64,000 nucleotides of DNA from Asanoa siamensis (GTDB lineage: Bacteria; Actinomycetota; Actinomycetes; Mycobacteriales; Micromonosporaceae). The notes under the pieces were generated by a model that made no database searches, was not told the DNA's origin, and saw nothing but the letters and a program-made list of their open reading frames with translations. Positions 5,488 to 62,400 of the stretch are shown here, in pieces. The first letter of the stretch is position 1. Every line of letters starts with the position of its first letter. The stretch spans positions 1 to 64,000 of the forward strand of contig NZ_BONE01000009.1 in assembly GCF_016862555.1 (NCBI RefSeq), in the 5' to 3' direction. A program made the position numbers and the translations under genes.

Positions 5488-6519
5488 TCACAGCATGGAC
5501 AGGTGCACGTGGTTGGTGTGGTCGGCGGCCGGGTCGCCACCGCCGCTGTAGGACTTCCAGCCCGTGCCCGGCATCCAGATCCGTCGATACCAGATGACGT
5601 ACATCACCCCGAGCGCGTTGGCGTTCTTGATGAAGAACGACGCCAGATTGTCGCCGTAGGCCTTGTCGGAGCCGGTCGCGCTCTTGTTCTCGAAACCACC
5701 CTCGGCCGCCGCGAAGTCACAGGCCCGGCCCTTGGGGTGCTCGCCGCCGCCACCGGAGCGGTGACACGAGACGTAGTGGTCGAAGTCCGCGGCCTGCGCC
5801 TGCCGCAGGGCATGCAGCGTGCGCGGCGTGATGCAGCCGCTGGCCGGCGTCGGGTCGTCGATCGTGCAGGACTCGGAGGGCCAGGAGCCGTCGGAGTTGC
5901 GGGGCGCCGGCTTCGCCGCCGGGGAGTTGGGGTTGATATAACCACCGCTGTTCGCGCCACCGCCGATGGTGCGCAGCGCCCGCTCGGCGTCTTCCTTGCG
6001 CTTGGCCAGCGTGGCGACCTGCTTCTGCTGCTCGCGCACCTCGGCGTCGAGTTGAGCCCGGGCCCCCACGGCCGCGGCCTGCGCCTCCGCGTAGCCGCGC
6101 AGTGCGCCCGCGTCGCGCTGGGCCATCAGCTCCAGGCTGCCCGCGCGCTGGAGGAAGTCGTCCGGCGAGGCGCTGTTGAGCAGCGCCGAGACGGTGGTGA
6201 GCCGGCCGGTGCGGTAGGACTCGACCGCCATCACGCCGACCGTGTTGCGGGTCGTCTCGACCTGCGCCTCGAGCCGCTTGACGTCCTTGTCGAGCCGCCA
6301 GGCCCGCCGCTTGGCGTCGTCGAGCTTGCGCTGCGCCTCGACCTGGCCCTTGGCCGCGGCCTCGAGGTTGTCGCGCAGCTTCTTCTCGTCGTTTTCCTTG
6401 GGCGCGGGGTTCGGCGCGGCGGCCGCGCCCGTGACCGGAGCACCGACCGCTACCGTCACGGTCGCGATCAGTGCGGCGAGCAGGGCCCGCCACCGGTATC
6501 GCGTCACCGTACGAGGCAC
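5488..6519 (-). CDS. Secreted coiled-coil protein with C-terminal peptidase-like (VanY/ARB_07466-like) domain
   Basis: 343 residues from GTG 6519, preceded by a good GGAAGGGA ribosome site. A signal peptide (RWRALLAALIATVTVAVG, cut near AAAAP) is followed by a long charged coiled coil (about 38-185) rich in Lys, Glu, Gln and Ala, like the N-terminal halves of actinobacterial cell-wall hydrolases and their activators. After a Pro/Ser linker the C-terminal domain (about 215-343) has CHRSGGGGEHPKGRACDF and a final HTNHVHLSML. These His/Asp-containing motifs resemble the LAS/VanY-type zinc fold. A cell-wall-related role is therefore likely. Actual metal binding and hydrolysis are not proven by sequence. 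Confidence 0.8.
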   Translation of the reverse strand: MPRTVTRYRWRALLAALIATVTVAVGAPVTGAAAAPNPAPKENDEKKLRDNLEAAAKGQVEAQRKLDDAKRRAWRLDKDVKRLEAQVETTRNTVGVMAVESYRTGRLTTVSALLNSASPDDFLQRAGSLELMAQRDAGALRGYAEAQAAAVGARAQLDAEVREQQKQVATLAKRKEDAERALRTIGGGANSGGYINPNSPAAKPAPRNSDGSWPSESCTIDDPTPASGCITPRTLHALRQAQAADFDHYVSCHRSGGGGEHPKGRACDFAAAEGGFENKSATGSDKAYGDNLASFFIKNANALGVMYVIWYRRIWMPGTGWKSYSGGGDPAADHTNHVHLSML

Positions 6520-47499: not shown

Positions 47500-47855
47500 C
47501 CACCGCGGAGCCGATGAACGCGTAACCGAAGGCGCCGACCATCCAAGCAACCGCCCCGCGCCTGCGGTGAGAGCGGCCCGCTGGGTCGGCATGCCCCGCT
47601 CGGCGCTGGCATACCTTAGCCACGTCCTCCACCCGCTCGGGCGGCAACCCGGCGTGCGTAACGTCAGAGCGGCCTTCGCCGCGACGTCGAGCGTCGGAGT
47701 GCGTTTCGACCTGCCGGACTCGACTACGGCAAGTGGCGACGCCGCCGACAGGGCCCGCGGCGGTACGGGCCAACAGCCCTCGGGTACATAGCTCGCTCCC
47801 GTAGGCAGGGGAGCACGGGTCGCCGCCGCACCTTCCGCTGGTACTGTGCCCTCAT
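47500..47855. other. Spacer without a supported gene
   Basis: Between the immunity-like gene and the tRNA. Minus-strand frames crossing it have no ribosome sites and continue into the antisense of the immunity gene; one holds a short hydrophobic run (about 47480-47550) that could be a remnant of a membrane protein. TACTGT at 47842-47847 is a likely -10 for the tRNA. I see nothing else. Confidence 0.5.
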
Positions 47856-47928
47856 GGCCCAGTAGCTCAGGGGATAGAGCACCGCTCTCCTAAAGCGGGT
47901 GTCGCGCGTTCGAATCGCGCCTGGGCCA
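47856..47928 (+). tRNA. tRNA-Arg (anticodon CCU)
   Basis: 73 bases fold as a full cloverleaf: acceptor GGCCCAG/CTGGGCC with discriminator A, D arm GCTC/GAGC, anticodon stem CCGCT/AGCGG with loop CTCCTAA (anticodon CCT at 47889-47891), short variable arm and T arm GCGCG TTCGAAT CGCGC. The CCA end is not encoded. It reads AGG codons. tRNA-Arg genes are frequent integration sites, and the sequence just downstream changes in character. Confidence 0.95.
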
Positions 47929-48467
47929 CAGCAGAGCTCCCGAGCGACGGATCTCGTCCAACAACGGAGGGGGAGGTCGCACGTCCACACGGGACCTGTT
48001 GCGGCCCGAAGTTGGTCTGGGTGGGATCGACGTCAGTGTCGAACCTCGTCGGCGCTCCACCGCGGAGCAGCGGATCGCACATATTCACCACGCGAGTCCG
48101 GACGCCGCTGCAGCCACTTAATCGCTGCACCTAAGACCCATGCTTCTCAGAACGACGCATCGACCCGGGGCATTGGCCGGCGGGGACCGCTGACCCCATT
48201 CCATCACCACAGGCATCGCAGTGACCTTGCGTAGCCCTGCGCCATTGACCACCCGGTCTGATACCCGAACGCGCCGTTCAACGGCTGGTTCGGCAGGGCG
48301 GCGTCCCACAGCTTTCAAAGTAGTTTCAACGCTGCTCAAAGGGGGTTCTGGGGGCCACGAGATCGACGTAGCCTTTTCGCATGCCCTCGTCGTGATCTGC
48401 AGGTCGCCTCCTCCGACGGGCACCAAGGCGCCTTCACGATCACGCCATTCGACCCGAAAGGATCGCC
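47929..48467. other. Spacer downstream of tRNA-Arg, lower G+C, no supported gene
   Basis: 540 bases with visibly less G+C than the flanking genes and no frame with a convincing start or family. The last 150 bases hold the presumed control region of the lanthipeptide precursor. I looked for a second copy of the tRNA 3' end as an attachment site and for integrase remnants and found neither. Confidence 0.5.
48315..48342 (+). promoter_or_regulatory. Heptad direct repeats upstream of the lanthipeptide precursor
   Basis: TCAAAGT, TCAACGC and TCAAAGG start at 48315, 48326 and 48336, i.e. 11 and 10 bases apart on the same helix face. Spaced heptads of this kind are bound by SARP-type activators. The downstream gene starts at 48468. 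Assignment is tentative. Confidence 0.3.
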
Positions 48468-48647
48468 ATGACGGCCCTACTCGAACTCGCCCCTCGCGAC
48501 GCTGGAACCATTCCGGAGGAGCTGCACGTGGAATTCGTGGACAGCGCCTCCCTCCATGAGGTCGTCGCCTGCTACGTGACGTGCACAATTCGGTGCAACT
48601 ACTCGGACTCGAGTCACTTCGCTGCCGAAGACGAGATCCTCAACTGA
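48468..48647 (+). CDS. Lanthipeptide precursor peptide (candidate)
   Basis: 59 residues from ATG 48468, six bases after AAAGGA. The N-terminal part (about 1-34) is an acidic, Cys-free leader-like helix: MTALLELAPRDAGTIPEELH, then VEFVDSASLHEVVA. The C-terminal part CYVTCTIRCNYSDSSHF has Cys35, Cys39 and Cys43 with Thr38, Thr40, Ser46, Ser48 and Ser49 as dehydration sites, enough for up to three (methyl)lanthionine rings. It ends with an acidic tail, AAEDEILN. Sixty-five bases downstream is the synthetase gene on the same strand. The location, leader/core split and Cys/Ser/Thr pattern make a precursor the best reading. The ring pattern cannot be predicted by eye. Confidence 0.8.
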   Translation: MTALLELAPRDAGTIPEELHVEFVDSASLHEVVACYVTCTIRCNYSDSSHFAAEDEILN

Positions 48648-48712
48648 ACAACCGCGTCCGATCCGCCTAAACGGCCGCAGCTCGGTTTACAACACTGTCG
48701 GAACAATCAGAG

Positions 48713-51328
48713 GTGGCTTTGAAAAAGGCGATTGACGGTGTCTCAGCGCCGGTCTCCTCCATCGCGAGTATTGTGTCTGACCTGGTCTTGGCGGCCGGCG
48801 GCCAGGTTCGGCACACCGATACGTGGTTGCACGTGGACAACCCTCGACTGTCCTTTCCCGATCACGGGTGGAAGCTGCACATATCATCGCGACCTGCGGA
48901 CTTCTCGAATCTCCTGCAGACGGTGATGCCGTTGCTGCTGTCGGCGGAATGCATGTTCAAGGTGGCGAGCTCAATCCGCGTGCTTACCGAATTGAACGAC
49001 GGCGTCACCTCCCCGGCGAGCGTCGGTAAGGCGATTACGGTTTATCCACACCAGGACCAGGTGACCCGGCTCGGGGCCGAACTCGTCGAACTGCTGCGCG
49101 GGCGGGTGGGACCGCAGGTTCTTAGCGACCGTAGGGTGGCGCAAGACGCTCCGGTCTTCTACCGGTACGGGCCCTTTCGCAGCACGCTCATGGCGAGCAA
49201 GGAGGGCATCGTACGGTCCGTAATGGTCGGCCCCGACGGTTCCGTCTTCGAAGGCACCGCCACACTCGGTTACGAACAGCCCCCATGGGCAACTGACCCT
49301 TTCCGAGTGACCTCGCCCAAGGACGACGCCGGCTTACCCACGTTGGTGGGCCAGCACTATCGACTTGACAAGGGCCTCATGGAGTCCGCGCGCGGCAACG
49401 TGTACCTAGCCACGGACGTACGGACAGACGAGAAGGTGGTATTGAAGCAGGCCCGCGCGTACGTGGCGGAGGCTTTGGACGTCGACGCGCGGATCCGCCT
49501 ACGCAATGAACGCTTCGTGCTTACCGCCCTGCAGGACGTGGCGGGCGTGGCACGCTTCCGGGACCACTTCCGACACGGAATCGATGAGTACCTTGTCACG
49601 TCGTACGACGGAAGGTTCAGCCTGAAGGATTTCGTGGCCCGCAAGGGACGATTCACACCCCTGCGCGAGACGGATCCGCACGCGACCAGCAAGGACCACC
49701 AAAGCCTCGATTGGCTCGCTCACCAGCTCGCGCTCACACTGCAGGAGATTCACAGCCGCGGTTACCTCGTGCGCGACCTGAGCCCGAAGAACATCGTCAT
49801 GGGAGCGGCCGGTGACAGCGTTACCTATATCGACTTCGGCTACTGCAACCACCACAACGTGGTGCTCAGAGGAGGCACGAAGGGGTACGCGCCGGCGCGG
49901 CAGATGGCGGGCGACCCCGCCGCCCCCGGCGACGACCTGCACGCGCTGGGTATGACGCTGTTCGTGGCCATGACTGGTGCCGAACCTGTGGTGGACGATG
50001 ACGATCCGGACGCGTCCCGCGTCATCGCGCTCCGCATGATCGAACGGATCTTCGGCGACCGGCCGCCACCCGTGGTGTCCCTGATCGCAGAACTGCTCTC
50101 CAGCGACCTTCAGGTCATGACAACCGCATTCTCGGCACTCGCCGATGGTCGCGGCGGAACTGACGGCTGGGAGGCCCGACGCCACACTTCGGTCCCGTAC
50201 CGACGTGGCTCCGAGGCGGCCATGCTGGTGGACCGGTACCTCACCGCACTTCTCATTTCGGTGAACGAACAGCTTGACCAGCCGGAAGAAATTTCCGATG
50301 CCAGCGTCTACCGCGGTACGGCTGGCGTCGGGCTATCCCTGCTGCGGCACCTGGACAGTCCCGGCGTAGCCGCGACCGTGGCGCGAATCGCCGCCACAAC
50401 GTCGCGTACCGCGGAGCGGGTGGCGCTGAAGCCCGCCTTGTACGTGGGTACCACCGGAGCCGAGATCTTCCTACGTCGTGCTCTGGCGGCCGGAGTGCCG
50501 GGCGAACCACTGCCGTCGGAGCTGCTCTTCGGCGGACCCGATGAGCGGACCGAGGTTGATGACGTCATCCTCGGTGCTGCTGGCATCGGACTCGGCCACC
50601 TCTTGCTCAGAGACCTGGACCCGCGCCCAGAACACGATGCGGCCATCCGGCACTGTCTCGAGTTCGTCACCGAACACGACATGCCACGGACATTCTTCGA
50701 CCCTGAGGACGCCTCGGTGCCAGGGCTCGACACCACGTTCGGCCTTGCCCACGGACACGCTGGACCGGTCGAGTTCCTGCGGCAGCTTGTCCTGCGCTCC
50801 CCAACCGAAGACACGCGAAGGCTGTACGCCGCGCGCCTCGCGCGACTCGCGGAAGGCGTACCCGGGTTCATTGACCGGGCCAGGAGAAGGAACGCTGTTC
50901 CGCTGTCCAGCTCGTGGTGCCGCGGCATGGCTGGCATGGGGAGAGTTCTCCTCGCGGCTGGTCGTCAACATTCGGACAACTCGCTGGTCGACCTGGCGGT
51001 AGCCTGTGCGGATGGTTGCCTTCGTTGGCTGCCCTATCTGACGAAGGTCGGCCAATGCTGCGGGCTCGCGGGCATCGGAGAGCTGTTCTGCGACCTCGTG
51101 GACCACGACGAACGGTTCCTGGCGGCGGCCGAGTCGGTCACCGTTCAGATTTCGATTACCGCCGTTGGCACGTCATTGGTCGAGCAACGTCCACACTGGA
51201 ATCGCACCAACGACATGTCCTGGTCCACTGGCACAGCGGGCATTCTGGACTTCGTCACTAGGCTTCGGGACCTTGGTTCGTCCTCCATCACGCTCGGCGC
51301 CTCGCCCACTGTGCTTGGGCCCTTCTGA
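48713..51328 (+). CDS. Class III/IV-type lanthipeptide synthetase (lyase-kinase-cyclase), LanL-like with CCG zinc motif
   Basis: 871 residues from GTG 48713 (TTG 48719 is an alternative). Three domains: phospho-Ser/Thr lyase-like (about 1-215, with GWKLHISSRP, GKAITVYPHQ and VFYRYGPF); Ser/Thr kinase (about 220-480) with Lys245, RDLSPKN (Asp355) and YIDFGY (Asp374); LanC-like cyclase (about 500-860) with GLAHGHAG (about 679), WCRGMAG (Cys736) and CCGLAG (Cys782, Cys783). Class III enzymes lack the zinc ligands and class IV LanL enzymes have Cys, Cys, His. Here the His of CHG is Cys, the three-Cys site known from ProcM-like LanM enzymes. The enzyme phosphorylates and eliminates Ser/Thr in the peptide, then forms thioether rings. 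No protease or transporter is nearby. Confidence 0.9.
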   Translation: MALKKAIDGVSAPVSSIASIVSDLVLAAGGQVRHTDTWLHVDNPRLSFPDHGWKLHISSRPADFSNLLQTVMPLLLSAECMFKVASSIRVLTELNDGVTSPASVGKAITVYPHQDQVTRLGAELVELLRGRVGPQVLSDRRVAQDAPVFYRYGPFRSTLMASKEGIVRSVMVGPDGSVFEGTATLGYEQPPWATDPFRVTSPKDDAGLPTLVGQHYRLDKGLMESARGNVYLATDVRTDEKVVLKQARAYVAEALDVDARIRLRNERFVLTALQDVAGVARFRDHFRHGIDEYLVTSYDGRFSLKDFVARKGRFTPLRETDPHATSKDHQSLDWLAHQLALTLQEIHSRGYLVRDLSPKNIVMGAAGDSVTYIDFGYCNHHNVVLRGGTKGYAPARQMAGDPAAPGDDLHALGMTLFVAMTGAEPVVDDDDPDASRVIALRMIERIFGDRPPPVVSLIAELLSSDLQVMTTAFSALADGRGGTDGWEARRHTSVPYRRGSEAAMLVDRYLTALLISVNEQLDQPEEISDASVYRGTAGVGLSLLRHLDSPGVAATVARIAATTSRTAERVALKPALYVGTTGAEIFLRRALAAGVPGEPLPSELLFGGPDERTEVDDVILGAAGIGLGHLLLRDLDPRPEHDAAIRHCLEFVTEHDMPRTFFDPEDASVPGLDTTFGLAHGHAGPVEFLRQLVLRSPTEDTRRLYAARLARLAEGVPGFIDRARRRNAVPLSSSWCRGMAGMGRVLLAAGRQHSDNSLVDLAVACADGCLRWLPYLTKVGQCCGLAGIGELFCDLVDHDERFLAAAESVTVQISITAVGTSLVEQRPHWNRTNDMSWSTGTAGILDFVTRLRDLGSSSITLGASPTVLGPF

Positions 51329-51584
51329 GCTGTTCAGGCGTCGCGCGACCAAATGGCGGCGCAGGGCTGCAGGAGGGCCGATCGTGGACAGGCGGGTCGG
51401 CATATCTGAACGACGACGCGACCGAGCTCCGATGAAGTCGGAATGAAGAGGACCGCATTCGATGTACGCATAGACAAATGCTAGGCCCCGACGTGACTTC
51501 ATGGTTGACGTTGTAGAGAGTGGCACCTGCGTCGCCGGGTGGCGCCTCCGCCCCGGTCAGTTCCATGGCCTTCCCACGACGTCA

Positions 51585-51672
51585 TAGCTTTCTGCTCTCG
51601 CGCGGCGCCGATCGCTTCATCCGACGGTGGGTCGGCAGCCAGCACGGCTGGCACCATTTCGAGCTCGTCCAC
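51585..51672 (-). pseudogene. Remnant of a CU044_5270-like gene
   Basis: From GTG 51672 the frame reads VDELEMVPAVLAADPPSDE followed by AIGAAREQK, the N-terminus of the family of membrane proteins that follow ECF sigma factor genes in actinomycetes (they begin MDELxxL...PDPPS..). After this the similarity stops and the frame loses meaning. Order and strand relative to the sigma fragment are as in intact pairs. Confidence 0.5.
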
Positions 51673-51832
51673 AACCTTTGCTGCCTTCCTTGCGATCGTG
51701 TGGGTGTGCTCGACTCGGCGAGTGCCGTAACGAGGTGGCCAACATACGAAGTTCGCGACGAGCCGCGCGTTGGTCTGCTCGATGTCATCTTGGAATCCAA
51801 GGTCCGCGGCCGCAGCACGGCGTGCGCGCGGT

Positions 51833-51957
51833 ATGCCCCCTGCTCGGCCGGATCGAATGAGGTTCGCCGCCGGAAGGCAAGGAGGAAGGCTTCGGCCGCG
51901 ACATCGTCGGCCTCTCCGGCGCCCAGGCGGCGTGCCGCATGGCCATTTTCGCACCCA
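51833..51957 (-). pseudogene. Remnant of an ECF sigma factor gene
   Basis: The frame contains GHAARRLGAGEADDVAAEAF followed by LLAFRRRTSFDP, a good match to region 2 of ECF sigma factors (normally ..RRLGAxxADDVVAETFLVAFRR..RFD). Upstream start and downstream region 4 are missing or out of frame, so this is a fragment. The coding sense continues, frame-shifted, toward the remnant at 51672. Confidence 0.55.
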
Positions 51958-52405
51958 CTCGGCTCCTTTCGTCGATCAGTGCTTTCGATGCTTGTTGACC
52001 GACCCAAGTTGATCTTCACGCGCTGATGCCGAAGTCCAACGCTGCAAGCGAGATGCTGCGCCGGGGTGGCCTATTGCTACGGACTGTGCCCCCGACACCT
52101 GTCCGCGCGACGTCGAGCACACCGACGACGTGGCCGCGCCGCGTTGAATGCCACGTGAAGTCGGCAGACGATTTGATTGCATCGACCCGGCCAGCAACTG
52201 AAGAGAATCATCGTGGCGGTCAGCGGCTGTCGGATGGCCAACGCGTGGTCCGGCCGCCATCCTGCCGCCGAACGGCTGCGTGTCGCTCGCTTCGACCAGC
52301 CGATGGGGCTCGCTACCGCCCGCGTCGTCAGCAATCAATGAGACGTGGTCCGGCAGCAACGGATCGGCTGTCGGCGGAGTACAAGAGCAGTGGAGGTGGC
52401 GCCCG

Positions 52406-52909
52406 GTGCCGGAGGAGTCGTTCGATGAGTTCGTCCATGCGAGCCTGCCTATGCTCAGCCGTTACGCCAACGCGCTGACCGGGTCGGCACACGCGGGCGA
52501 GGATCTCGTCCAGGACACGCTGGTAAAGGTAGCTCGAGCCTGGCGGCGCATAAAGATCGACGGCAATCCCGCCGCGTACGCCCGAAAGGTCATGTTGCAC
52601 ACCTACCTGAGCGCGTGGCGAGGTCTGCTGCGTCGGCCGCGGACCGTCCCGCTGTCGGCCGACTGGGCCGGTCCCGATGAGTATCCGTTGGTCGACTCCC
52701 GCGATCTGTTGCGCCGCGCGCTGGTTGGGTTGCCGCCCGCGCAGCGGGCGGTCCTGGTGCTCAGCTATCTCGACGACGTAGCCGACGACGACATAGCCGC
52801 CCTCATCGGGCGGCGCCCCGCCACGGTGCGCTCGCTGCGCCAGCGCGGGCTGGCCACGCTCCGCCGCCAGTTCGTACGCGAGGCCCAGGGGAGCAGCGAT
52901 GAACGATAG
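52406..52909 (+). CDS. SigE-family ECF-like RNA polymerase sigma factor
   Basis: 167 residues from GTG 52406, ten bases after GGAGG. Region 2: YANALTGSAHAGEDLVQDTLVKVARAW; region 4: LPPAQRAVLVLSYLDDVADD, then IGRRPATVRSLRQRGLATLRR. Small size and sequence match the actinobacterial SigE-70 family. It overlaps the next gene by 11 bases, and that membrane protein is a likely anti-sigma or sensor partner. Confidence 0.93.
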   Translation: MPEESFDEFVHASLPMLSRYANALTGSAHAGEDLVQDTLVKVARAWRRIKIDGNPAAYARKVMLHTYLSAWRGLLRRPRTVPLSADWAGPDEYPLVDSRDLLRRALVGLPPAQRAVLVLSYLDDVADDDIAALIGRRPATVRSLRQRGLATLRRQFVREAQGSSDER

Positions 52910-54113
52910 GTATCCCGCCGTCGAGCCGTTGCTCCGCGACGAGTTCCAAGAGCTGGCCGCACTGCCGCAGCCCGACGTGGTCGCGATGCTGGGTCGGCTG
53001 AAACGTCGCCGACGGCGCCACGGTATCGGCGCCGTCGCCGGCGCCTTGGCCGTGCTCGCGATCCTCGCGGGCATCATCCTCACCGTCGGCGAATCGCCGC
53101 CCCCGCCGGCGGCCGCCACATTGCCAGCGAACCTGGCTGTCACCGGCCCGCCGCAGGTCCACTTCGTCGACGCTGACCACGGCTTCGCCCTGGCGTCCTC
53201 GTGTCCGGCCTCCGCCGGCGCTTGCGGGGTGTGGTTGGCGAACACCTCCGACGGGGGGAGGAGCTGGCAGGCGCACCAGGTCCCAGACCTGACCTATCCA
53301 AACACCGACGAGGGCGCGGAACCCCGGGTCAACCTCCGGGTACTCGACGCGTCCCGGGCAGCCCTGGACGGCTACGACGGCGACCGGCGCTGGTTCACCA
53401 CCGACGCCGGTGCCACGTGGACTCAGCCGTCACCGCGCCCCGACGGCGTCGTGGACAGCATCCCAGCCAACGGTTTGGCCCAGGTCGAAAGCAACGCCGG
53501 CGGCCCGATCGGAATTGTCGTGCTGCTACCCGACGGCCGCTCGGCGCGGTTGGCTACCCCGCCGGTCGCACCGCTGATCGAGTCGATGACCGACGTTGCC
53601 TTCGGTGCCGATGGAAGCGCCTGGGTTGAAGGCGGTAATGATGACCGGTCGTGGGTGTTTGTCAGTCGCAACCGCGGCCGGTCGTGGAACGATGTCCCGC
53701 TTCCCGCGGAGGCGGCCGAGCCGGGCGTACCGCATCGCACGACCGGCCGGCTCGCCGTCCATGACGGCCGGACCGCCTTCCTGGTGGACGCGTACGGCTA
53801 CCGTCTGTGGCGCACGACGGACGACGGACGACACTGGGTTGCGCTGACCGCACCGATCTCCAAACCGTCCGAAGACATCGGAATGAAGGCCACCCCCGAG
53901 GTTGACGGCGGGCTCACTGTCTTCGACATCCTGACCGGTCGCAGCTTCACGCTGCCCGGGAACGGTGAGCGGTTCGCGCCGGTCACCGCCGCGGAGCGGC
54001 GTCCATCCGACCGCATCGGCGCCCGGTTCCTCGCTGGCAGCGGCCAGAGCGGCCAGGAGCCGCCGTATTTCCACTCCTCTGATCGGCGCAGCTGGACGGA
54101 GCTGCGATTCTGA
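52899..54113 (+). CDS. Membrane-anchored BNR/beta-propeller protein paired with the sigma factor
   Basis: 404 residues from ATG 52899, overlapping the sigma factor. The first 40 residues are cytoplasmic and end in RLKRRRRRHG; one membrane helix follows (about 43-62). The external part has repeated Asp-box motifs: NTSDGGRSWQAH, TTDAGATWTQ, SRNRGRSWNDV, TTDDGRHWVAL and SSDRRSWTEL, i.e. a BNR/sialidase-type propeller. The short N-terminal cytoplasmic part could hold the sigma factor. No zinc-type anti-sigma motif is visible. A sensor of extracellular signals is a reasonable guess. Confidence 0.85.
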   Translation: MNDRYPAVEPLLRDEFQELAALPQPDVVAMLGRLKRRRRRHGIGAVAGALAVLAILAGIILTVGESPPPPAAATLPANLAVTGPPQVHFVDADHGFALASSCPASAGACGVWLANTSDGGRSWQAHQVPDLTYPNTDEGAEPRVNLRVLDASRAALDGYDGDRRWFTTDAGATWTQPSPRPDGVVDSIPANGLAQVESNAGGPIGIVVLLPDGRSARLATPPVAPLIESMTDVAFGADGSAWVEGGNDDRSWVFVSRNRGRSWNDVPLPAEAAEPGVPHRTTGRLAVHDGRTAFLVDAYGYRLWRTTDDGRHWVALTAPISKPSEDIGMKATPEVDGGLTVFDILTGRSFTLPGNGERFAPVTAAERRPSDRIGARFLAGSGQSGQEPPYFHSSDRRSWTELRF

Positions 54114-56188: not shown

Positions 56189-56833
56189 CTACGCCGCGAC
56201 AGCGACTGCCGTCACGATCAGCCCAGTCGAGAGCAGATAGCGCCCCCGCAGCTCCGTCAGTGCCGGACCACCGTCGATCCGCGTGCCGTCCACCAGGATC
56301 TCCGCCCGGAAATAGTCGGCGTCGAAGGTCAGGCTGGCGTCTTCGAAGCCGAGCCAGCGGCCGGTCAGTGGGTACCACACCTTGAACACCGACTCCTTGG
56401 CGCTGAACACCAGACGTTCCCAATGCTCGCATGGCGCGTCCGCCGCGAGGCGGGCGCGCTCCCCCGGCAGCACCACCAGCGAAGCCACCCCGTCCGGGAG
56501 CGGCAGGTCCGGCTCCGCATCGATGCCGAGGCCCGCCAGGTCGGCTCGCCGAGCCACCACCGCAGCCCGGTAACCAGCACAGTGCGTGATGCTCCCGACC
56601 ACCCCGGCCGGCCATAACGGCTCACGGCGCGGACCCGACAGAATCGGCACCGCCGGCACCCCGAGGCTGGCAAGGGCTTGCCGCGCACAACGGCGGGCCG
56701 TGATGAACTCGCGCCGGCGTCCCTCCACGGCGCCGGCGATCGCCGACTCCTCACCCGGAAATGGCGCCTCGTCGGGATCGTCGGTGAAGACCTCGCACGA
56801 CACGGCGACCGCCGGCAGAAGCGACGAAATCAC
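56189..56833 (-). CDS. Sfp/EntD-type 4'-phosphopantetheinyl transferase
   Basis: 214 residues from GTG 56833, overlapping the metallophosphoesterase stop (GTGA). RRREFITARRCARQALASLG, GSITHCAGYRAAVVAR, LGIDAEPDLPL (metal Asp and Glu) and FSAKESVFKVWYPLTG (KEs motif) are in family order. It transfers phosphopantetheine from CoA to the carrier-protein serine, here most probably the ACP of the PKS at the start of this operon. Confidence 0.93.
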   Translation of the reverse strand: MISSLLPAVAVSCEVFTDDPDEAPFPGEESAIAGAVEGRRREFITARRCARQALASLGVPAVPILSGPRREPLWPAGVVGSITHCAGYRAAVVARRADLAGLGIDAEPDLPLPDGVASLVVLPGERARLAADAPCEHWERLVFSAKESVFKVWYPLTGRWLGFEDASLTFDADYFRAEILVDGTRIDGGPALTELRGRYLLSTGLIVTAVAVAA

Positions 56834-57651
56834 AGGATCCGCCGCAGCGGTTCCGGCGCTCCGCCGCGACGGCCCCACTCGCGCGGGTAGCCCAACGAGA
56901 CCTCCTCGAACCTCACGCCGTCGTACGACGTCGACAGTGGAATGTGTAAATGTCCGTAGACCGCGGCCACAGCCCGATGGCGCAGGTGCCAGTCGCCGGT
57001 CCGGACCGTACCGCACCATTGCGCGAACTCCGGATGCCGCAGCACGTCGGTGGGTTGCCGCACCAGCGGCCAGTGGCTGACGAGGACGGTCGGCAGCGCC
57101 GGGTCCAGCTCCGCCAGCCGGCGCGAGGTCCGCTCGAGACGGTCCCAACACCAGGCCTCACGACTCGGGTACGGGTCGAAGTGCAGCAGCGCCTCGTCGG
57201 TGCAGACGATCCCGGCGGCGTACGCCCGGCGCAGCGATTCCGTCTTGTCCCGCACCCCCGGCATCCGGAACGAGTAGTCGTAGAGCACGAACAACGGCGC
57301 CACGACGGCCGGCCCGCCCGCGCCTGTCCAGATAGGATACTCGTCCTCCGGTGTGACGATGCCGTTGTCGCGGCATGCCCGTACCAGTGCGTCGTAACGG
57401 GCCGCTCCCCGCACCGGCAGCGGGTCGTCCGCGCGCGTCCACAGCTCGTGGTTGCCCGGCGTCCAGATCACCTGCCGAAACCGCGACCGCAGCGTCGCCA
57501 GCGTGTGGACGACGTCGGCGAAGATCTCGCCGACATCGCCCGCCACGATCAGCCAGTCGTCGTCGGAGCCGGGTCGGAGCCGGTCGACGATACGGCGGTT
57601 CTCCGGGTACGCGACGTGCAGGTCACTGATCGCCAGCAACGAACCGGTCAC
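56830..57651 (-). CDS. Calcineurin-like metallophosphoesterase
   Basis: 273 residues from GTG 57651. The metal ligands are all present: ISDLHVAYPE, VAGDVGEIFAD, TPGNHELW, VLVSHWPLV and VYGHLHIPLSTSYDG. This is the general binuclear phosphoesterase fold; substrate could be a nucleotide, a phosphodiester or a pathway intermediate. It overlaps both neighbours by 4 bases (ferredoxin upstream, transferase downstream), so it belongs to the polyketide operon. Similar phosphoesterases accompany transferases in other actinomycete clusters. Confidence 0.9.
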   Translation of the reverse strand: MTGSLLAISDLHVAYPENRRIVDRLRPGSDDDWLIVAGDVGEIFADVVHTLATLRSRFRQVIWTPGNHELWTRADDPLPVRGAARYDALVRACRDNGIVTPEDEYPIWTGAGGPAVVAPLFVLYDYSFRMPGVRDKTESLRRAYAAGIVCTDEALLHFDPYPSREAWCWDRLERTSRRLAELDPALPTVLVSHWPLVRQPTDVLRHPEFAQWCGTVRTGDWHLRHRAVAAVYGHLHIPLSTSYDGVRFEEVSLGYPREWGRRGGAPEPLRRIL

Positions 57652-57836
57652 CGCAGCGTGATGGCCTGTTCCGGGCAGCTCGCGGCACCCAGTTGGGCGT
57701 CCGCCTCGAGCTCGGCGGGCACCGGGTCGACGATGACCATGGCAAGGTCGTCGTCGGACAGCTCGTACACCTCGGGTGCGTTCATGGAACAGACGCCGTG
57801 CCCCTGGCAGACGGCGAGGTCGACGGTGGCGCGCAT
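57648..57836 (-). CDS. 3Fe-4S ferredoxin
   Basis: 62 residues. Cys10 and Cys16 in CQGHGVCSMNAPEVYEL and Cys54 in ASCPEQAITLR give the three-cysteine pattern of actinomycete ferredoxins that feed cytochrome P450s. The fourth position of a 4Fe-4S cluster is Gly/His. No P450 is in the visible part, so it probably serves one further upstream, beyond the window edge. Gap to the FAD oxidase is 12 bases. Confidence 0.92.
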   Translation of the reverse strand: MRATVDLAVCQGHGVCSMNAPEVYELSDDDLAMVIVDPVPAELEADAQLGAASCPEQAITLR

Positions 57837-57848
57837 CGTGTGCTCCTC

Positions 57849-59129
57849 TCAAACGGGATAACGACGGACCCGGCGGCCCGCAGCCGGGTGGCTGTAGCTG
57901 GCACCCCCGAGCCGCCGGGCCGTCACCTGCAGGGCGGCGTTGGCGCGCCGCATCCGCGCGAGCGCGACCCGATCGCCGGCCGGCGCGGTCCGCTGCACGC
58001 CGAACACCACCGTGACGGGGTCGTCGGCCTTCGGCATCCGCGGCGCGGCCAAGCGCGCGGTCGGGATCGCATAGATCAGCACGCTCCCGCCCGGGCCCAG
58101 ATCGGCGGGCGTCAGCTCGCGCACCACGGCACCGATGACGCCCGCGGCGTGCCGTCCCGGCAGGAAGACGTTGGCCCGCGGGTGGGCGTCGCCCTGCCAT
58201 GAGCCGGTGGCCCGGGCCTGGTCGACGAGCGGATCGAGCCGGTGTACGAACTCCGCCGCCGACACTTTCTCGGTCGTGACCTCGGCGGCGGCGAGATCGT
58301 CCAGCGGCGCGGGATCGGCGGCCGCCGCGTCGATGACGAAGCTCCAGCCCTGGCCGGCCCACAACGCCTGGCCGACGAAGTGGTCGAACCGGGGCGCCGC
58401 GATCAACCGGTGCTGGTCGTCGAGAAAGGGACCGAGACTCGGGTACGCGAGCCGGTGGCGCACGACCGCCGCGGCCACCGGATGCAGGGTGAGGGTGGCG
58501 GCGGTGATGATGCCGTGGGCGCCCTGGGTGCCGCGGACGGCGTCGAACAGCCCGCCTGCGGAGCAGGTGACGAGGTCGCCGGCGGGCGTCACGACATCGA
58601 GCGCGATAACGTTGTCGGCCACGCTCCCGTGCCGATGACTGGCGCCACCCACACCACCGGCGGCGATGGTGCCACCGACGGTGAGGTCGAGATAGTCGGG
58701 CAGCACCGGGGGCGCGAGACCCAGGGGCAGGGTGACGGCGACGACGTCCCGCCAGCGCGCCCCGGCCTCGACACGCACGCTCGAAACCGGCGGCGCGGAA
58801 CCTGCCGCCGCCGACGTGGGCTCAGAGATTACGGAACCGACCGACGCCAAGGCCGTCAGGGAGATCACGACACCGCCGGCAGTCAGGGTTTGGGCGTCGA
58901 CCGTGTGGCCCGCACCCCGTACCACGACCGGCACCCCCGTCGCGCGGCCGCGCCGGACCATCGCCGCGACATCGGCCGCGTGCGCCGGCTCGAAGACCGC
59001 TCGCGGCCGCCGCACCGTCTGCCGGCCGAAGTCCACCGACGCCGCGTCCAGCAATGCCGCGTCCGTGTGGAGCTGGCCCACGAGCCGGGGCACGGCTTCC
59101 CCACCCTGCCCCGGCCCGTGGGTGGCCAT
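57849..59129 (-). CDS. FAD-linked oxidase (cytokinin-dehydrogenase-like)
   Basis: 426 residues. FAD-binding PCMH domain with VVRGAGHTVDAQT (His75 at the position of the covalent FAD link), VRVEAGARWRDVV and LPDYLDLTVGGTIAAGGVGG followed by ASHRHGSVADNV, the last being characteristic of the cytokinin dehydrogenase branch. No export signal. It probably oxidises a pathway intermediate made by the PKS rather than a plant hormone; this is inference from its place in the operon. It starts one base after the preceding stop. Confidence 0.88.
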   Translation of the reverse strand: MATHGPGQGGEAVPRLVGQLHTDAALLDAASVDFGRQTVRRPRAVFEPAHAADVAAMVRRGRATGVPVVVRGAGHTVDAQTLTAGGVVISLTALASVGSVISEPTSAAAGSAPPVSSVRVEAGARWRDVVAVTLPLGLAPPVLPDYLDLTVGGTIAAGGVGGASHRHGSVADNVIALDVVTPAGDLVTCSAGGLFDAVRGTQGAHGIITAATLTLHPVAAAVVRHRLAYPSLGPFLDDQHRLIAAPRFDHFVGQALWAGQGWSFVIDAAAADPAPLDDLAAAEVTTEKVSAAEFVHRLDPLVDQARATGSWQGDAHPRANVFLPGRHAAGVIGAVVRELTPADLGPGGSVLIYAIPTARLAAPRMPKADDPVTVVFGVQRTAPAGDRVALARMRRANAALQVTARRLGGASYSHPAAGRRVRRYPV

Positions 59130-59130
59130 C

Positions 59131-59430
59131 TCAGCTACCGAACCCGTACGAGCCGATGATCTTCGCCTCGTTCGCGTCCGGGGCGCCGGCCGCCCGCTCG
59201 CCGAAGCCCTTCTGGAACTCCTGGAACGCCGGGAAGTCCGTCAGGGCCGCGCCTTCCGCCATCTGTCCGACGTGGACAAAAGTCACGCCATCACCCAGGC
59301 GGAAGGAGGCGTACGAGATGCCTTCCGGTGCTTTCGATGCAAGCTCCGCGAAGACGCCCTCGATCAGGCGCTGGTTGTCGTCGGCGGTGTCCGGACGCAT
59401 CTCGTAGCGGATCACGAATGCCTTGCTCAC
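59131..59430 (-). CDS. Small dimeric alpha/beta-barrel protein (ABM-like)
   Basis: 99 residues from GTG 59430 with AGAGG upstream. AFVIRYEMRPDTADDNQRLI, then GISYASFRLGDGVTFVHVGQ and FQEFQKGFGER give the beta-alpha-beta layout of antibiotic-biosynthesis-monooxygenase/dimeric alpha-beta-barrel proteins. Such proteins act as oxygenases, cyclases or stand-alone helpers in polyketide clusters. The exact role is open. It lies 32 bases after the PKS stop. Confidence 0.78.
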   Translation of the reverse strand: MSKAFVIRYEMRPDTADDNQRLIEGVFAELASKAPEGISYASFRLGDGVTFVHVGQMAEGAALTDFPAFQEFQKGFGERAAGAPDANEAKIIGSYGFGS

Positions 59431-59462
59431 GCTGACCTCTTTCGTCGACGGTCGGGTCGCGG

Positions 59463-62400
59463 TCAATTATCCGTGCCCTGTGGACGGAGGCTCTCCGTGA
59501 CGTGCTCCGAGAGCGCCGCCACCGTCGGTTTGGCCCAGAGGATCGTCGGCGGCAGGTCCAGGCCGTACCGACGCTGCAGGCGGACCCGCAGCGCCACCGT
59601 CATCACCGAGTCGACGCCCAACTCCACCAGCGGGCGCTTCAGCTCGATGTCGGCCGCCTCCAGGTTGAGCTCGGCCGCGACCTGCTCGCGGACGTCGGCG
59701 GTGACCCGCTCACGGGCCTCGGCCTCAGGCAGGCTGCCCAGGTCGATCGTGAACCGCTGCCCGCCGACCTCGGTGTCGACCGGGTCCGCCGTGGTCAGCT
59801 CGCGGAACATCGGCAGCCGCGGCGTGTCCGCCGGCAGCGGCAGCACGTGCAGCACCGCCTGGTAGCTCGCCTGGAACCGGTCCGCGAACGACCAGGCCCG
59901 GAACGCGTCGGTGACGCTGACCGAACCCAGACCGCGGGAGTTGGCCTCCACCATCGTGGTGGCGATGTCGGCCGACATGCCGACGCCGTGCCACGCCGAC
60001 CAGCCCATGCTGCGCGTCTCGTGGTGCCCGCCGCTGTTGCGGTGGGCCGCGAGCGCGTCCAGGAACGAGTTGCCCGCCGCGTAGCTGGCCTGGCCCGACA
60101 GCCGGGCGAACTGGCCGCACGAGGAGAACAGCACGAAGAAGTCGAGCGATCCCGGCGGGAAGAGCCGGTGCAGCACCATCGGACCGTTGACCTTGGGACC
60201 GAGCACGTCCCGCAGGCCCGCCAGGTCGACGTTGTCGACCAGGTCGCTGTTGACGACACCGGCGGCGTGCACGATGCCGCGGATGGGTGGCAGGCCGAGC
60301 GCGCCGGGCGCCAGCGTCGCGGCCACCTGCTCGGCGTCGGTGATGTCGAGCGCCACGACGGCGACCGTCACCCCCAGCGCCTCGATCGCGAGGACGCTCT
60401 CGATCTGCCGCCGCACCGCCGGATCCGTGACCGCCGGCCACTCCGCCCGCGGCGGCAGGCCACGCCGGCCGGCCAGCAGCAGCCGCCGGGCGCCCCGGTC
60501 GACCAGCCACTTCGCCACCTCGAGACCGAGCGCCCCGAGACCGCCCGTGATCAACACGGTGCCGGACGGCGAGCACTGCAGCGGTGTGCCGTCGGCGCTG
60601 CGCTCGATCGGGGTCAGCCGCGCCGCCTCGGCGCCGGAGTCCGTCAGCGCGATCACGTCCTCCGCGCCCGCCGCCGCCCGCATGATCTCGAGCAGCGCCG
60701 GCCCCGTGGCGGCGTCGACACCGGCCACGTCGACCGCGCCACCCCAGATCTCGGGGTGCTCGCCGGCGATGATCCGGGCGAGGCCCCAGAGCGGGCCGTG
60801 CGCGACCGACCGCTCGTCGGTGGCGTCGCGCACCCCCTGCGTCAGGCACCAGACCCGCTGCGGCGCGGCCGTACCGACCTCGACCAGTTGCTGCACGGTG
60901 CGCAACAGGGTCCGGGACACCCGCTCGGCCGCGGCTTCGAGCCCCTCACCGTCGCGGTCGAGCGCCGGCACGACCAGGACCACGCCGGGCTTCGTGAACA
61001 GGTCCGGCCGCAGGTCGACCTGACCACTGACCGGGTCAGGCTCCGGAACCACATGCACCACGGGTACGCCGGCCGCGGCGAACTGGCTGGCGAACGGCCC
61101 GGCGTCGCCGACCAGCACCACCTGCTCGATGGTGTGCGAGGCGGTGTCGGTCGGCAGCGGCCGCCAGGCGATCTCGTACACCAGGTCTCGGGGAAGGACG
61201 GCCGCGCCCAGGTGCTCGACAGCCGCGAAGCGCAGGCCGATCACCTCGCAGACGACGGTGCCGGACTCGTCGGCCACCCGGACGTCGACGGTGTCGTGCG
61301 GCGACTTCCGCGAGCGGGTGCTGTGCACGATGATCCGGGCCGGCGGTACGCCGTCGAAGGCGACCTTCTCGATCGACCGCGACATCCACAGCGTCTCCGC
61401 CCGCGGCGGCGCCACCACGACGGCACTGATGGTCAGCGCGCCGTCGATCACGTGGGCCCAACTGCTGGCCCGGTCGGCGTCGCGCTCGATGGTCAGGATG
61501 GCCAGTTGCTCGTCGTCGTCGCGGCGCAACTCGTCGAGATCCCACGGGAACGCGTACCCCTCGACGCCCATCTGCCGGAAGTTGTCGTCGACGTGCTGCC
61601 AGGAGCCGACGGGCAGGTTCGACCGCAGGGCCTCCGCGTCGACGAAGCCGCTCGGGGGCGGTGCGGTCGAGTCGAGCGCGGCCGTCGTGTGGGTGATCCA
61701 CTCGTCGCCGTCGTCGGCACCGCTGGGCACGCGGGTGGCCAGCGAGATCGTCCGGCCCTCGCGGACGATCTGGACGATCCGGGGAGGTTCCACGGCAAGC
61801 GGCGTACGCAGCATCACGTCGGTCACGGTCGCCGGGCGGTCGTCGTCGCCCGCCGCGGCGAACGAGTTGATGATCGACGCCGCCGGCGTGACCTCGACGC
61901 CCACCAGGCCGTGGCTCTGCGGGTACGGCCGGCTGTCGAGGTCGAGGTAGGTCTGCCAGACCTGCCGCGACGGCGCGCCGCTGACCGTGATCCGCCCGCC
62001 GAGCAGGCTGTGGCTGGCCGGGTCGTGACCGCCGCCCAGGCCCGCCTCACCGTCGGCGCCGTCCGGGAAGATCCAGTAGGCCCGGTGCTGCCAGACCGCC
62101 GCCGGCAGGTCGAGCAACGCCCCGCCGCCGTGCTGCTTGGACCAGTCGACCACGGCGCCGTACGCGAAGAGCTTGGCGAGGTTTCCGAGCAGCGTCTCCC
62201 CCTCGGGGGCGTTGCGCCGCAGCGTCCCGGTGACGACCGCCTCGTCCAGGTCGCGCTCGTGCAGCGCCTCGCTGATCGAGTGGGCGACCACCGGATGCGA
62301 CGAGATCTCGGCGAACAGCCGGTGCCCGTCGTCGATCGCCGCCGCCACCGCCGCGGCGAACCGCACCGGCTCCCGCAGGTTGGCCACCCAGTAGAGGCTG

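Follow-up and report, generated by a model that had tools for sequence, protein, structure and literature searches.

The 59-codon open reading frame at positions 48468–48647 (+ strand) of the window, i.e. of the whole 64,000-nucleotide stretch of Asanoa siamensis DNA analysed here, is, judged by its sequence, a real precursor gene of a class IV lanthipeptide and represents a branch lying below current model cut-offs. This gene, hereafter lanA, was recognised from its reading frame, from a hold-out profile and from orthologues at homologous loci. It starts with ATG at 48468, ends with TGA at 48645–48647 and is preceded by GAAAGGA (48456–48462) five bases 5′ of the start codon. In an alignment of three upstream regions the ribosome-binding site together with the start, GAAAGGATCGCCATGA (48456–48471, + strand), is identical at the window locus, in another genome of the same family (G348) and in Nonomuraea typhae. 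The leader region delimited by alignments (LLELAPRDAG…VEF…; residues 1–34, up to the first Cys; 48468–48569, + strand) is free of Cys and contains 7 acidic residues and 1 basic residue (K/R), while the part from the first Cys onward holds 3 Cys and 5 Ser/Thr. The latter begins with the core motif CYVTCTIRC (C..TCT..C; 48570–48596, + strand) and terminates in the acidic tail AAEDEILN (48621–48644, + strand). A gap of 65 nt separates lanA from the GTG start of the synthetase gene lanL at 48713. Thus the small gene with its ribosome site, the Cys-free acidic leader, the three Cys and five Ser/Thr of the core, the acidic eight-residue end and the 65 bases to a lyase-kinase-cyclase gene, all claimed by the original prediction, were borne out. 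The general attributes of lanthipeptide precursors, namely a Cys-free leader, a core with Cys and Ser/Thr and an adjacent synthetase conserved together with the peptide gene, are all present.

In the window 1024 open frames reach 25 codons or more, and all of them were searched with the hold-out profile, which was built from 52 xPR-type precursors excluding those of the window, G348 and N. typhae (L016). lanA matched it with 42.3 bits (E=3.2e-12), and the next window frame had E=0.15. A search of the own assembly with a nine-row precursor alignment returned lanA at E=2.8e-23, which is so by construction, and one other match (E=0.185). Among 354 genomes of the family LanL was registered at E≤1e-60 in ten, the window's own counted, and a homologous small open frame stands directly upstream of it in eight of the nine others; in the ninth (G009) LanL is truncated and no precursor was seen upstream. 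The precursor-alignment search of the same family gave matches at E≤0.01 in 16 of the 354 genomes. All 11 strong ones (E≤1.6e-6) lie directly before LanL or, in genome G098, before its remnant, but since the alignment was drawn from nine of these 11 genomes, only G098 and G140 are independent (the LanL of G140 is not among the ten registered in the family, but tblastn gives it E=3e-82). The five weak matches (E from 7.8e-4 to 8.5e-3), four of which fall inside open frames of 352–588 codons, are taken as chance.

Beyond the family, a contig search with the single LanL protein as query revealed no relative, and an alignment query gave 451 loci, of which the best 80, all named, were read individually. 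A precursor on the same strand upstream of LanL was found at 75 of these best 80 loci, 44 being xPR-type and 31 SflA-type, including two of the latter (L055 and L065) without a settled start. As to the remaining five, L021 has a leader peptide on the opposite strand, the gene of L077 stands at the contig start, L094 offers an unrelated-looking candidate, and at L022 and L023 inspection of reading frames found no precursor beside LanL. Because the precursors were chosen by eye from reading frames and then checked against the DNA, these counts carry some judgement. The original prediction had proposed co-occurrence with the synthetase in relatives as its check and a different small frame at related loci as its refutation; the peptide proved to be conserved beside homologous synthetases, with a matching small frame at the loci read. 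In a class-wide sample of 394 genomes LanL appeared at E≤1e-100 in 4 others, and 107 plasmid records contain LanL relatives, all of less than 60% identity.

A LanL tree with 82 rows was obtained by a quick method with SH-aLRT support only; L023, L077 and L093, which have short contigs or partial genes, were left out of it. In this tree the window, N. typhae (L016) and G348 (L007) form one clade with support 100, and the Nocardia loci L017, L018 and L022 stand beside it. Core type follows this tree: its labels change 9 times against a mean of 46.4 after shuffling, although near-copies help such clustering. The pattern C-x2-T-C-T-x2-C is confined to the window clade (3 of 86 precursors). The three clade peptides are about 50% identical and have in common MxxLLELAPRDAG, VEF, AC..TCT..C and one invariant Asp of the tail, the acidic character of which is partly kept (EDEILN, DDEI and DDAI). 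Compared with its two kin, 10–11 of 22–27 changed leader codons of the window gene are synonymous, versus 1 of 10–14 changed codons after C43. This difference in synonymous share indicates that the leader is under constraint and the tail much less so; little is therefore built here on the acidic tail. In a search of the running text of a library of papers neither the leader strings, including LLELAPR, nor the core strings were found printed as peptide; in the papers listed as containing a leader string, it was judged from the titles to belong to other words. The core is thus new as far as searched, and the peptide or its kin may stand in the supplementary class IV precursor lists of PMC7268733.

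lanL (48713–51328, + strand; NF038150 and Pfam) encodes a lanthionine synthetase of 871 amino acids, with TTG at 48719 as a possible alternative to the GTG start. An N-terminal RamC_N lyase domain (PF25816; 48791–49318, + strand) is followed by a protein kinase domain (PF00069; 49391–50053, + strand) and a LanC-like cyclase domain (LANC_like, PF05147; 50546–51271, + strand) with WC.G (C736) and CCG (C782, C783), all above the Pfam gathering score. In 25 aligned LanL proteins K54 and H56 of GWKLH, kinase residues K245, E266, D355, N360 and D374, and C736, C782 and C783 of the cyclase are invariant; these are expected to be the catalytic or zinc residues of the families concerned. The zinc-binding residues, which serve as a class IV criterion, are present as sequence motifs, and CCG occurs in every one of the named relatives (best 80 of 451), WC.G in all but one (79 of 80). 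By sequence the nearest solved structure is 8CAR (E=6.8e-115), and the AlphaFold2 model of LanL is confident (mean pLDDT 86.7, pTM 0.88).

Profile comparisons place the leader in a widespread family that reaches the characterised SflA family via an intermediate, CKRT, group. The xPR and CKRT profiles match at E=1.2e-8 and the CKRT and SflA-type profiles at E=2.4e-7, while direct comparison of xPR with SflA-type gave E=2.4e-4 (probability 44); reversed controls gave E=0.11 and 0.22. The CKRT group comprises 17 loci from Nonomuraea, Actinomadura, Saccharopolyspora, Actinoallomurus and one actinomycete MAG (L036, L037, L040–L042, L046–L048, L050, L053, L057, L061, L063, L067, L072, L080 and L086). 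Like the window locus they combine a homologous leader (LxLEPRDAG in their case) with a class IV LanL, but differ in a near-invariant core around GPQACVNTCKRTVCSSFPCCPSIV and in an ABC-transporter-like family gene. The window peptide gave no match at E≤1 to the SflA family model NF038148 (cut-off 25 bits), nor to any other NCBIfam model at that threshold, and reached only E=0.8 when compared with a profile built from SflA-type precursors. Of the SflA-type peptides, that of L074 scores 106.7 bits with NF038148 and that of L081 scores 81.4; the one CKRT peptide tested, at 24.7 bits, is 0.3 bit under the cut-off.

Two characterised systems are suitable for comparison. Locus L091 belongs to Streptomyces sp. 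NRRL S-1022, named as the producer of Sfl in PMC8358304, and its precursor holds PDLLK, given as the SflA processing site in PMC10885120; on strain and motif together this precursor would be SflA itself. The window peptide gene resembles SflA in its position directly upstream of LanL, in a leader with RDAG and an acidic stretch containing F, in a Cys/Thr core and in a cluster without its own peptidase (PMC10885120 places the SflA processing enzyme outside its cluster). It differs in that the window leader begins with LLELAPRDAG, the core is CYVTCTIRC… versus CLSDPWVTATTRFAC in L091, and LanL scores 591.6 bits with NF038150 as compared with 916.3 for the LanL of L091. Venezuelin of Streptomyces venezuelae (VenA/VenL) shares with the window a class IV lyase-kinase-LanC enzyme and, according to PMC2843593, the lack of a protease gene in the cluster. 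The same paper describes dehydration and cyclisation of VenA by VenL in vitro, reports rings with Cys before Dhb/Dha, and mentions transporter genes venT and venH adjoining the ven cluster, unlike the window, which has none among the scanned frames.

This Pfam scan took in 18 open frames located between roughly 40.2 and 61.9 kb, several of them without any match, and within this range the earlier remark that no transporter or protease is nearby holds. The neighbours identified are phospholipase C, a WXG100-like protein, a sigma-70-family factor, RtcB, a release-factor domain, an aldo-keto reductase, a short-chain dehydrogenase, a phosphopantetheinyl transferase, a FAD-binding oxidase and a protein with KR and carrier domains. 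The transferase, the oxidase and the KR/carrier protein occupy 56189–61904, where a separate biosynthetic cluster may overrun the end of the window. The window, G348 and L016 have only the peptide and LanL genes in common in their neighbourhoods; the broad families of FAD oxidases, regulators and aldo-keto reductases gave low-identity matches between pairs of these. Pfam analysis of five frames each at G348 (of 16 called) and L016 (of 17) added for G348 a trypsin-like gene, not shared, which lies approximately 1.6 kb downstream of LanL. The ABC-transporter-like family (a label tested with Pfam on one member, L026) occurs within about 6 kb of LanL at all 17 CKRT loci, at 9 of the 28 remaining xPR loci and at 4 of the 30 SflA-type ones; loci shorter than 12 kb (L020, L084 and L093 among the precursor-bearing ones) were left out of this comparison. 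With heuristic gene calls it was not found at the window, L116 (G348), L016, L017 or L018. G348 and L018 have an ABC-ATPase-like frame 7–8 kb before LanL, which is of a different kind from the CKRT-associated family or too distant. The genome to which the window belongs also contains four further LanC-like genes on contigs C22 and C124; on C22 three of these lie inside a 10-kb stretch.

Composition alone is no more than moderate evidence for the gene: when the 500 nt preceding the synthetase were shuffled 2000 times by dinucleotides, 13 of the shuffles also yielded a frame that lacks Cys in its first part and is rich in Cys/Ser/Thr towards its end. One could therefore suppose that lanA is a chance frame and that LanL acts on some other peptide. 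The profile result contradicts this: lanA scores 42.3 bits (E=3.2e-12) and none of 10410 frames from the shuffled sequences exceeds 11.0 bits. Moreover, G348 and L016 carry orthologues at the same place. We reject the chance frame, the probability of which is practically negligible. It is also very improbable that the locus is a class III system of the SapB or labyrinthopeptin kind, with a LanKC enzyme making labionin, or lanthionine without zinc. The three-domain layout is indeed shared by both classes, and LLEL of the leader recalls the LxLQ motif of class III leaders in PMC7268733. However, LanL scores 591.6 bits with the class IV model NF038150, its best NCBIfam model, and 303.3 bits with the class III model NF038151, that is 288 bits less and under the cut-off of 575, so that it does not qualify as LanKC. 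The former score is itself below the cut-off of 650, which is missed likewise by the clade mates L016 (601.0) and L007 (584.1) and by the Nocardia locus L017 (627.5) and is passed by L019 from Planosporangium (655.8). Class III cyclases lack the zinc ligands according to PMC7268733, whereas the zinc motifs of LanL are intact, and the leader profile extends via the CKRT group to class IV SflA precursors. The class III reading was rejected on model scores and zinc motifs, and the enzyme is best assigned, from its residues and model scores, to class IV (LanL-like).

Somewhat more weight should be given to the idea, also improbable, that the cassette is silent or decaying, intact in its letters yet unexpressed, a leftover beside a tRNA gene. 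The two genes lie between tRNA-Arg(CCT) and rtcB in a stretch that varies among sibling genomes, which keep homologues of the blocks flanking the cassette; five other genomes of the genus gave no match to this LanL, and in the relative G098 an intact precursor stands beside a broken LanL. On the other hand, the reading frames of lanA and lanL are both intact, the share of synonymous changes in the leader (10–11 of 22–27) is that of a constrained sequence, and C..TCT..C and the ribosome site have been kept at about 50% peptide identity. A sigma-70-type promoter match was absent from 47900–51600, which is a weak guide for an actinomycete. Ends of an insertion element around the cassette were looked for in 47500–53000 and discarded as a candidate, only weak short repeats being present.

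Preferring an intact precursor–synthetase pair, we consider it highly probable that the 59-residue product is the precursor of the adjacent LanL, that LanL forms rings in its core, and that leader removal and export are encoded elsewhere. Directly observed are the gene and its homology, the link with LanL and the intact domain motifs, and VenL and SflA provide the analogy for LanL chemistry and for trimming in trans. The acidic leader (LLELAPRDAG…VEF) would be recognised by LanL, the kinase domain would phosphorylate core Thr/Ser among T38, T40, S46, S48 and S49, and the lyase domain would eliminate phosphate to give Dhb/Dha. The zinc-bearing cyclase could then add C35, C39 and C43 to Dhb/Dha, so that as many as three thioether rings would form within and beside C-x2-T-C-T-x2-C. 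The leader would be trimmed by general peptidases encoded elsewhere in the genome, which is plausible because the SflA peptidase lies outside its cluster (PMC10885120), and export may likewise depend on genes located elsewhere. Six Pfam matches to Peptidase_M1, a common family, are present in the own genome.

Any particular pairing of residues, cleavage site or biological role is speculative. The mirror-like C-x2-T-C-T-x2-C may allow two small rings of opposite direction, C35–Dhb38 and Dhb40–C43, flanking C39, which in turn might join a Dha originating from S46–S49. The G348 peptide has no Ser/Thr from after residue 3 up to its first Cys, and with this spacing the first Cys most likely closes onto a later residue or stays free. 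It is a tentative idea, which we would sooner doubt than accept, that the peptides of this clade carry a class IV ring system of a new kind, made by a two-gene cassette without a dedicated exporter; such a cassette would imply that the product leaves by a general route or acts in the cell.

The window locus, then, is real and belongs to a branch, so far unlisted, of a known family of peptides with rings; its chemistry is probably standard. Few class IV lanthipeptides are characterised: PMC9576775 counts two before its own work and adds two. Through the leader family, LanL genes from several groups of actinomycetes are linked with the small precursors beside them, and a search model becomes available for a branch under the NCBIfam cut-offs for both class IV enzymes and precursors. 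The locus itself, consisting of two genes and encoding a short core that is nearly symmetric, offers a compact test system.

Several relatives deviate from the common arrangement. The LanL of L022 is grouped with the Nocardia loci and directly follows what, by its motifs, would be the end of an NRPS adenylation domain (upstream of 10001); its upstream region is one of those without a found precursor. The L021 precursor (9726 and below, − strand) is opposite to LanL, which suggests divergent genes, and at L114 (G098) the intact precursor (about 5870–6050, − strand) accompanies a LanL broken into several frames. In L055 and L065 (Catenulispora), about 300 bases before 10001, an SflA-type peptide follows repeats of approximately nine residues (SDSPSLAVN) in one open frame without a clear start codon, L065 having none within 40 residues. 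Possibly more surprising than the window finding itself are leader-type precursors completely free of Cys at L024 (9657–9905), L025 (9759–9884) and L030 (9683–9871), two from Nonomuraea and one from Actinoallomurus, where a pattern scan found no other leader-type peptide. They contain DSSWSLAH repeats (a 24-nt unit in 5.3 copies), GDSTWP repeats or a lone DSTWT, and their LanL proteins form one clade with support 100. Being paired with LanL proteins that bear CCG, these precursors would give dehydrated peptides without lanthionine.
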